DNA from: Clavelina lepadiformis
Taxonomy: Eukaryota > Chordata > Ascidiacea > Aplousobranchia > Clavelinidae
DNA length: 64,000 bases
NCBI RefSeq assembly: GCF_947623445.1
Contig: NC_135240.1
Span: forward strand, 27,652,001-27,716,000
Reading direction: 5' to 3'
Below are positions 35,976 through 37,494 of the stretch, one piece after another (position 1 is the stretch's first letter; each line of letters opens with the position of its first letter). A program made the translations under genes and the position numbers. The notes under the pieces are model-generated. The model had not been told where the DNA came from and did no database searches. It saw nothing but the letters and a program-made list of their open reading frames with translations.

Positions 35976-37494
35976 ATGCCAGCAAGAAAAGGAAAGACCG
36001 AAAAAGTTGAAGAAGTCGTCCAACTTGGACCTCAAGTGGCCGAAGGTGAAAATGTTTTCGGCGTAGCGCACATCTTTGCCTCGTTCAATGATACCTTCGT
36101 ACATGTCACTGATTTGTCGGGAAAGTACGTCTTAAAAATAACACAACCATTGTTGCTGTTTTATGCAGATATTTTGTCACTGTACTTAATAGTGGTTTAC
36201 CTTTATTCTGTACAAAGAATTCTAAGCTATATACCTTGCTATAAGAAGCTATTGCTGCTGTTGTTTCCTTGCTGGGCAATGGTGTATTTTTAAGTCGTGA
36301 CTTTGTGTGGTGCAGTCTTATTTTAACTATCATTTTCCTCAGAGAAACAATTGTTCGTATCACCGGTGGTATGAAGGTAAAAGCCGATCGTGACGAAGCT
36401 TCACCGTATGCTGCTATGTTGGCAGCTCAGGATGTTGCCGCAAGGTACTTCAATAATGCTATGGCCCTCTTCATATATTTTCAGAAATATTAAACGGTCA
36501 TTATCGAAGCCAGTTTCTCTGCCTCTTTCGTTGAACTGGTCAAAACTTGACCCAGAATAATTTGTTTTTATGACGGTCGCTAACGCACTAATGCTCACGT
36601 GCAGTTGGCAATTACCACATTGACTTACATTGCATGCTTACACAACATCTGTAGTAAGGCTTTAATTTTGATACAAATCACATGACTTTTTGTTCCAAGG
36701 TGCAAAGAAATTGGCATAAATGCTCTTCACATTAAGCTTAGAGCCACCGGTGGTACAAGAACCAAAACCCCAGGACCTGGTGCTCAGAGCGCCTTGCGTG
36801 CACTTGCCAGATCCGGAATGAAGATTGGTCGCATAGGTAAGTACCTTGTGCTCGCACTTGCTATGTCAGGTCAATATCGAAGCCAGGAAGTCCAGTGTTA
36901 GTGGACTTCTGGTCAAAGTTTGACCAAAAGCAATGATGCTTCTCGACGGTCGCTGACTGCAAATACATGCAAGGTCGGCATCACTACAGTAGCATATATC
37001 TGGACATTTTCTATTTCACACACGTTCATTGTCAGTATTGTAGTAATGGCGGCTGTATTGGTCCAAACTTGTAACCATGTGAATTACAGTTGGTGGTTTG
37101 ATTTGTTGTTCAATCAAATCCATCATAAATCATAGACCAGCGGTTCTTAAACTTTTTTGAGCGCGACCCAAATCTGAGTTTCATGATCACCTCACGACCC
37201 AAACCTATGTCGCGACCCATTTTAATGTCCTGTAGACCTATATTATATTATATTAACCTATGTCGCGACCCACCTATGTCACTATGTCGCGACCCATTTT
37301 CTGACCCTCCGCGACCCATGTTTGGGTCGCGACCCATACTTTAAGAACCCCTGTCATAGACAGTATTCTTAGTATGCTATAGAACACATAGTTACAGCAT
37401 ATATTCATGAGGAAATGTTTTTGCAGAGGATGTCACTCCTGTTCCGTCAGACAGCACAAGACGAAAGGGTGGTCGCAGAGGAAGACGTTTGTAA
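35976..37494 (+). CDS. RPS14: 40S ribosomal protein S14 (uS11), 4 coding exons, 151 aa
   Basis: A component of the small ribosomal subunit platform that contacts 18S rRNA. Coding exons: 35976-36124, 36343-36444, 36700-36836, 37427-37494 (456 nt). The product starts [20 protein letters not shown], continues [40 protein letters not shown] and [20 protein letters not shown], and ends in the very basic [11 protein letters not shown]. Its length and sequence match animal S14. A splice acceptor (tttttcag at 35961-35968) lies 7 bases before the ATG, so either a 5' UTR intron or spliced-leader trans-splicing precedes the start. An AATAAA begins about 8 bases after the stop. Introns 2 and 3 each carry an H/ACA-like snoRNA candidate; intron 3 also has a MITE. 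Confidence 0.98.
36489..36632 (+). ncRNA. Candidate H/ACA snoRNA in RPS14 intron 2
   Basis: A two-hairpin RNA reading in the host-gene direction. Hairpin 1: lower stem GGTCA (36496-36500) with TGACC (36548-36552), upper stem CCAGTT/AACTGG, and internal-loop arms tatcgaag and tcaaaa. From the upper stem to an H box AGAATA (36554-36559) is 14 nt, the spacing H/ACA guides use. The arms can pair with LSU rRNA around UUUUGA-UC-CUUCGAUG in the peptidyl-transferase domain, leaving exactly two unpaired bases (UC), so U would be modified. Hairpin 2: arm atgacggtc, upper stem GCTAACGCAC/GTGCaGTTGGC, and ACA at 36627-36629. The hairpin 2 arm can pair with LSU GACCGUCGU. The lower stem of hairpin 2 is weak. 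A related copy sits in the next intron. Confidence 0.65.
36862..36999 (+). ncRNA. Candidate H/ACA snoRNA in RPS14 intron 3, paralogue of the intron 2 copy
   Basis: Hairpin 1: lower stem GGTCAA (36869-36874) with TTGACC (36920-36925), a long upper stem CCAGGAAGTCC/GGACTTCTGG, and the same loop arms tatcgaag and tcaaag. The H box AAAGCA (36927-36932) is 14 nt from the upper stem. Hairpin 2: arm cgacggtc, upper stem GCTGACTGCA/TGCA-AG-GTCGGC, and an AUA box (36994-36996) 14 nt beyond. Both target arms match the intron 2 copy, while the upper stems differ and still pair, which argues for a selected RNA structure. Use of AUA for ACA and the poor 3' arm of hairpin 2 lower the confidence for that half. 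Confidence 0.65.
37138..37353. mobile_element. hAT-type MITE in RPS14 intron 3
   Basis: 216 bp with inverted ends CAGCGGTTCTTAAACTT and its counterpart TTTAAGAACCCCTG. An exact 8-bp target duplication tcatagac flanks it (37130-37137, 37354-37361). The inside repeats 'gcgaccca' several times. There is no coding capacity. Confidence 0.93.

Follow-up and report, generated by a model that had tools for sequence, protein, structure and literature searches.

Two SNORA16-like box H/ACA RNA genes in successive RPS14 introns of Clavelina lepadiformis

The RPS14 locus and its two intronic RNAs

The window analyzed here, 64,000 nucleotides lying within the Clavelina lepadiformis genome (209 Mb, 95 contigs), carries on its plus strand a gene that we take to be RPS14, the name given to it in an initial annotation of the sequence. 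Its four coding exons join into one open spliced frame through GT-AG introns, and the first of them matches Pfam Ribosomal_S11. Of its coding introns (36125-36342, 36445-36699 and 36837-37426), the second houses one H/ACA-like RNA (copy 1) and the third another (copy 2). The pair had been annotated as 36489-36999, a range that also takes in the exon between the copies, and its placement in successive RPS14 introns proved exact.

35976-37494, + strand: RPS14 host gene, coding exons 35976-36124, 36343-36444, 36700-36836 and 37427-37494
36491-36632, + strand: H/ACA-like RNA copy 1 (Rfam match range; psi28S-3327/SNORA16 clan; RF00544, 35.4 bits)
36866-37001, + strand: H/ACA-like RNA copy 2 (Rfam match range; SNORA16 clan; RF00190, 32.8 bits)

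Three exact blocks, ATCGAAGCCAG, CTGGTCAAA and GACGGTCGCT, occur twice each on the plus strand of the window (36503/36876, 36536/36909 and 36572/36945), all separated by one constant offset of 373 bases, which bears out the shared arms that had been read from the sequence. The exact chain ATCGAAG-N20-45-TCAAA-N20-45-GACGGTC has two matches in the 209-Mb genome, and both are the copies described here; the same chain read backward, as a control, gave one forward and one reverse match. Short-word BLASTN of intron against intron returned four pieces, three of them the shared blocks (E 4.5e-4 for the best, of 18 nt), with the fourth a 13-nt piece matching an unrelated place. A 651-base DNA search including both copies matched its own place alone. 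Of the 133 alignment columns counted, 76 are identical. Best kept are the hairpin-1 lower stem (10/10) and 5' arm (8/8); the hairpin-2 5' arm is identical at 7/7 positions and the hairpin-2 stem base at 10/12. The less conserved functional parts are the hairpin-1 3' arm (5/7), the hinge with the H box (5/10) and the hairpin-2 3' arm (5/8), and identity falls to 7/18 in the hairpin-2 lower stem region, to 12/30 across the upper stem and loop of hairpin 1 and to 4/19 at the hairpin-2 apex; the tail stands at 3/4. These are two paralogous genes for H/ACA-type RNAs in successive RPS14 coding introns, and they probably arose by duplication between the adjoining introns. A published parallel is the sponge RPL13A gene, in which an H/ACA RNA is described as cis-duplicated into the adjoining intron of the same ribosomal protein gene (PMC3412847). 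The likeness lies in the duplication into the next intron within one such gene, whereas snoRNA and host are different, and within one sponge the copies share 94% identity, against 76/133 columns here.

The intron of copy 2 also contains, 3' of that copy, a 216-bp MITE (37138-37353, within 37130-37361) with inverted ends CAGNGGTTCTTAAA and an 8-bp target duplication TCATAGAC; from its ends and duplication length we presume it to be hAT-like. The best 40 of 123 candidate places were scored, and all 40, among them its own, are full length with 100% identity as rounded; thus at least these 40 have spread recently. Neighboring features in the window are an exon of an FGF-like gene (17786-18334, - strand), which scores 24.4 bits with Pfam FGF against a cut-off of 24, and a protein kinase exon (1774-2211, - strand). 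The frame at 20623-21804 (- strand) looks FGF-like by eye and has no Pfam match.

Anatomy and family of the two copies

The boxes that define the anatomy are the following.

36554-36559, + strand: copy 1 H box AGAATA, 14 nt past the upper stem
36627-36629, + strand: copy 1 ACA box, 17 nt past the upper stem
36927-36932, + strand: copy 2 H box AAAGCA, 14 nt past the upper stem
36996-36998, + strand: copy 2 ATA at the place of the ACA box, by Rfam alignment to RF00190

The 14-nt spacing from the hairpin-1 upper stem to an ANANNA box, which had been noted at the outset, holds in both copies. An AUA in place of the ACA box, as in copy 2, can be tolerated in box H/ACA snoRNAs. Folded alone, hairpin 1 forms in both copies, with a longer upper stem in copy 2 only, and the upper stems that the initial annotation named are present in both. 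Hairpin 2 is clear in copy 2; in copy 1 its upper stem is present and its lower stem weak, two of the five pairs of the copy-2 structure being broken. The fold of copy 2 is well below shuffled sequence (z -3.84 for the whole, with 0/200 shuffles as good; -4.93 for hairpin 1 and -1.89 for hairpin 2). That of copy 1 is weak (z -1.38 for the whole, with 16/200 shuffles as good; -1.80 and -0.91 for the two hairpins), and in its whole-sequence minimum free energy structure hairpin 1 is not formed.

When both copies are laid on a common four-helix structure, 95.5% of the 44 cells are paired. Covariation between the copies had been claimed from two upper stems. It is present, with both-side changes in 5/22 pairs, but weaker than stated, as 19/500 shuffles reach the same count; the two cited stems covary at 2/6 and 1/6 pairs and are otherwise invariant, the hairpin-1 lower stem at 0/5, and two of the five covarying pairs fall in the weak hairpin-2 lower stem. 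Because covariation is so limited, the case was rested on family and target instead.

In a local Rfam search (4227 families, 601 bp) the best match of copy 1 was RF00544 (psi28S-3327; 35.4 bits, curated cut-off 70) and that of copy 2 was RF00190 (SNORA16; 32.8 bits, curated cut-off 35). The covariance-model search proposed earlier thus places both copies in one clan, CL00021, with E 1.1e-4 each, but both stay under the curated cut-offs. The same two families remained the two best matches across 5 kb (E 9.3e-4 for RF00544 and 9.5e-4 for RF00190). At gathering cut-offs the whole window gave no Rfam match, and genome-wide searches with RF00190 and RF00544 gave none at E<=0.001; the control genomes were silent too, so that the genome-wide zero is not evidence of absence. 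A covariance model built from the two copies returns those two alone in the window, by construction. Given scores under the cut-offs and genome searches short of E 0.001, we describe the copies as SNORA16-like, on grounds of homology and guide, and do not count them as certified members of Rfam. A further match below cut-off, TB11Cs5H3, covered the first hairpin of each copy (E 0.0043 and 0.58). Also below cut-off, DdR7 (E 0.97) and, from the 5-kb search, snoR1 (0.41, minus strand) and sroH (0.82) look like chance matches and were set aside.

The likeness to SNORA16 (ACA16; RF00190) extends to the hairpin-1 arms, the target discussed below (U4412), the GACGGUC arm of hairpin 2 and the overall layout. 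Besides the shortfall in score, the differences are the AUA of copy 2 and the RPS14 host, the human SNORA16 host gene being SNHG12. To snopsi28S-3327 (RF00544), which we take to be a fly RNA, copy 1 is matched along all 143 positions, and the consensus arms of that family predict the same two sites on the rRNA of C. lepadiformis; its upper stems are unlike those of copy 1, which scores 35.4 against 70. The third relative is yeast snR46, whose Psi2865 is equated with U4412 in a published table (PMC3542256), although no snR46 family is among the Rfam matches listed for the copies.

Hairpin 1 and the U4412 site

A full LSU gene was not found in the genome. The hairpin scans covered 3676 nt of rRNA, namely positions 1-636 and 2310-3401 of the Rfam LSU model, 5.8S and SSU 630-1831, and took in a second SSU 3' end as well; given this limit, a better target in the remaining rRNA is possible. 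Sites are numbered by placing the human modification rows of PMC6182160 on one LSU fragment of the genome (L006), where 26/28 rows match the base at one offset, the next best offset giving 13/28; the two misses are 4331 and 4588. The guide arms of hairpin 1 are as follows.

36502-36509, + strand: copy 1 hairpin 1 5' guide arm TATCGAAG, pairing with LSU CTTCGATG at the first-ranked site
36540-36546, + strand: copy 1 hairpin 1 3' guide arm TCAAAAC, six pairs with LSU TTTTGA
36875-36882, + strand: copy 2 hairpin 1 5' guide arm TATCGAAG
36913-36919, + strand: copy 2 hairpin 1 3' guide arm TCAAAGT

In the rRNA scanned, LSU U4412 (human numbering) is the top-ranked U for the first hairpin of each copy. 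The site GCTTTTTGA[TC]CTTCGATGTC takes first place with 8+6 pairs in copy 1, 9+6 in copy 2, 6+8 in the RF00190 consensus and 8+6 in that of RF00544, and 0/200 arm shuffles did as well for each of these four sequences; in a second shuffle test 1/300 did for copy 1 and 0/300 for copy 2. It is present exactly in six fragments of the genome, three of which, scanned with Rfam, are LSU, and L006 contains the sites predicted for both hairpins exactly.

U4412 is a known site. Published tables list snR46/2865 together with ACA16/4412 (PMC3542256) and give snR46 for 2865, marked as peptidyl-transferase center (PMC8307265). SNORA16 has also been placed at U4442, in helix 89/90 of the same center (PMC12288042), which we infer to be U4412 in another numbering. 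Deletion of yeast snr46 is reported to raise aminoacyl-tRNA affinity and nonsense suppression (PMC1766470). The initial annotation had predicted a peptidyl-transferase-center target in LSU rRNA for hairpin 1, and this target is right, since both hairpin 1s pair best with the SNORA16/snR46 site. Its reading as a whole, from H/ACA-like anatomy and paralogy to RPS14 hosting and the hairpin-1 target, is supported. It had missed the resemblance to a known family, the AUA and mismatched hairpin-2 3' arm of copy 2, and a predicted target for hairpin 2 itself.

We put at about 90% the probability that the copies are intron-encoded genes for two box H/ACA snoRNAs of the SNORA16/psi28S-3327/snR46 kind with hairpin 1 directed to U4412, a figure that concerns family and hairpin 1 only. 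Each RNA would be trimmed after splicing and bound by H/ACA proteins. In either RNA the pocket of hairpin 1 (TATCGAAG ... TCAAA) would then pair with LSU GCUUUUUGA-UC-CUUCGAUG and position the U at human 28S 4412 for conversion to pseudouridine.

Several observations concern the rDNA itself. LSU rDNA is poorly assembled: six fragments (L002-L007) contain the target word, and in five cases a contig end lies within 600 bases. Of two further LSU word probes, one found a place without an Rfam LSU match and the other found no match. A 26-nt word from the SSU rRNA 3' end turns up at 26 places, scattered over eight large contigs. Among the six of these loci that were read (L013-L018), the SSU piece at L014 looks diverged or interrupted; L016, L017 and L018 have a common flank starting TACAGTACTTCCTCGATTATCCG, and L015, the sole reverse-strand match, has its reverse complement. 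The flank resembles what we take to be a pogo/Tigger end, and L015-L018 look as if a transposon had carried rDNA.

Hairpin 2 and a candidate guide for Psi4502

The arms of hairpin 2 fared differently in the two copies.

36572-36578, + strand: copy 1 hairpin 2 5' guide arm GACGGTC, with a single complement in the 3676 nt of rRNA scanned, beginning 2 nt past U4502
36610-36617, + strand: copy 1 hairpin 2 3' guide arm AATTACCA, first four nt paired, two of them as G-U
36945-36951, + strand: copy 2 hairpin 2 5' arm GACGGTC, conserved
36980-36987, + strand: copy 2 hairpin 2 3' arm ATCACTAC, fit to U4502 lost and site absent from the scan list

The GACGGUC arm is found in both copies and in the consensus lines of RF00190 and RF00544. 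Its complement, GACCGUC, lies two bases after U4502, exactly 90 nt downstream of U4412 in LSU and beside U4501, which we take to be the catalytic-center U2585 of E. coli numbering. U4502 ranks first for copy 1 (10+4 pairs; 2/200 arm shuffles as good, and 1/300 in a second test), the RF00190 consensus (8+3; 11/200) and the RF00544 consensus (10+5; 0/200), three results that are not independent because the 7-nt arm is common to them. The consensus arms were scanned against C. lepadiformis rRNA, and the upper-stem boundary of RF00544 hairpin 2 was chosen by hand; a one-base shift of its 3' arm changed the score (13.3 vs 13.8) and left the rank the same. In copy 2 the 3' arm lacks one A in the alignment and is mismatched. 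U4502 is absent from its scan list, and no target is claimed, the best site being another LSU U (9+2; 40/200 shuffles as good) or an SSU U when the 3' arm is defined more strictly (85/300).

In human rRNA, U4501-Psi4502 has been shown and Psi4502 is given as 100% modified (PMC6182160). A paper of 2021 states that 4502 had no assigned guide RNA and reports that SNORA71 failed a yeast test for this site (PMC8522698), and none is assigned in the largely open-access article text searched. The yeast table of PMC8307265 gives no Psi at 2955, 90 nt after 2865, which sets snR46 apart from the RNAs considered here; this fits an animal-side function of hairpin 2, without testing it.

Copy 1 hairpin 2 is predicted to guide a second site, GGGUU-UA-GACCGUC (human 4502), and as the two predicted sites are 90 nt apart, one SNORA16-like RNA could perhaps serve both. 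Even odds go to the alternative that hairpin 2 of the family guides nothing. GACGGUC would then be retained for contact with protein or for an accessory contact with rRNA, and the modification at U4502 would come from a different guide or from a stand-alone enzyme. The 3' arm pairs poorly with the site (3 bp in the RF00190 consensus; two Watson-Crick and two G-U pairs in copy 1), 11/200 shuffled RF00190 arm pairs do equally well, and in the minimum free energy fold of copy 1 hairpin 2 some of the 10 arm bases compete with lower-stem pairing, and GGU pairs with ACC across the pocket. Moreover, copy 2 retains the 5' arm without the 3' arm, and good pairing often does not mean activity (PMC8522698). 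The same source also describes how a weak pocket can gain from strong pairing elsewhere in the molecule. Against this alternative, the complement of the arm lies in exact register with a known pseudouridine. The chance that a random 7-mer would abut any of the 14 human sites counted is 0.0009, a value that would be larger if all human rRNA pseudouridines were counted and that leaves out a 15th listed site, 4331, because L006 has a C there. The complement occurs just once in the 3676 nt, and no shuffle in 200 equalled the 10+5 pairs of the RF00544 consensus.

Tentatively, and at somewhat short of an even chance, we suggest that the animal SNORA16 family is a double guide, with hairpin 1 for Psi4412 and hairpin 2 for Psi4502, and that the RPS14 duplication began to split these jobs, leaving copy 1 with both pockets and copy 2 with the first only. 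Hairpin 1 is under clear constraint in both copies, and hairpin 2 has apparently been kept as a guide in one. Copy 2, with its 5' arm of hairpin 2 kept and the 3' arm lost, looks specialised for the first site.

It is unlikely that one copy alone is a working guide and the other a decaying duplicate, even if each has a blemish that invites the thought: the fold of copy 1 is no better than that of many shuffles (z -1.38, 16/200), and copy 2 carries AUA where ACA is expected, and its hairpin-2 3' arm is broken. There is also a precedent in Xenopus SNORA22, whose copies differ in the upper stem only, one being functional and the other not (PMC8522698). But in both copies the hairpin-1 arms continue to pair with their site (8+6 and 9+6), and both keep the lower stem, the H box and the 14-nt spacing despite an upper stem and loop identical at 12/30 positions. 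Chance resemblance, that is, intronic sequence with fortuitous hairpins, could draw on the weak copy 1 fold and the Rfam scores under cut-off, yet is scarcely credible beside three blocks at a constant 373-base offset, two separate Rfam matches and a known site ranking first in all four sequences tested.

As snoRNA genes, the two copies are ordinary: a known kind of guide, a ribosomal protein gene as host and duplication in cis. The pair matters because its divergence shows which parts selection keeps. A candidate guide for Psi4502 would be a modest new point, drawn from base pairing and conservation. One of the kept parts is the hairpin-2 arm matching an orphan pseudouridine at the peptidyl-transferase center, and it bears on what makes Psi4502.
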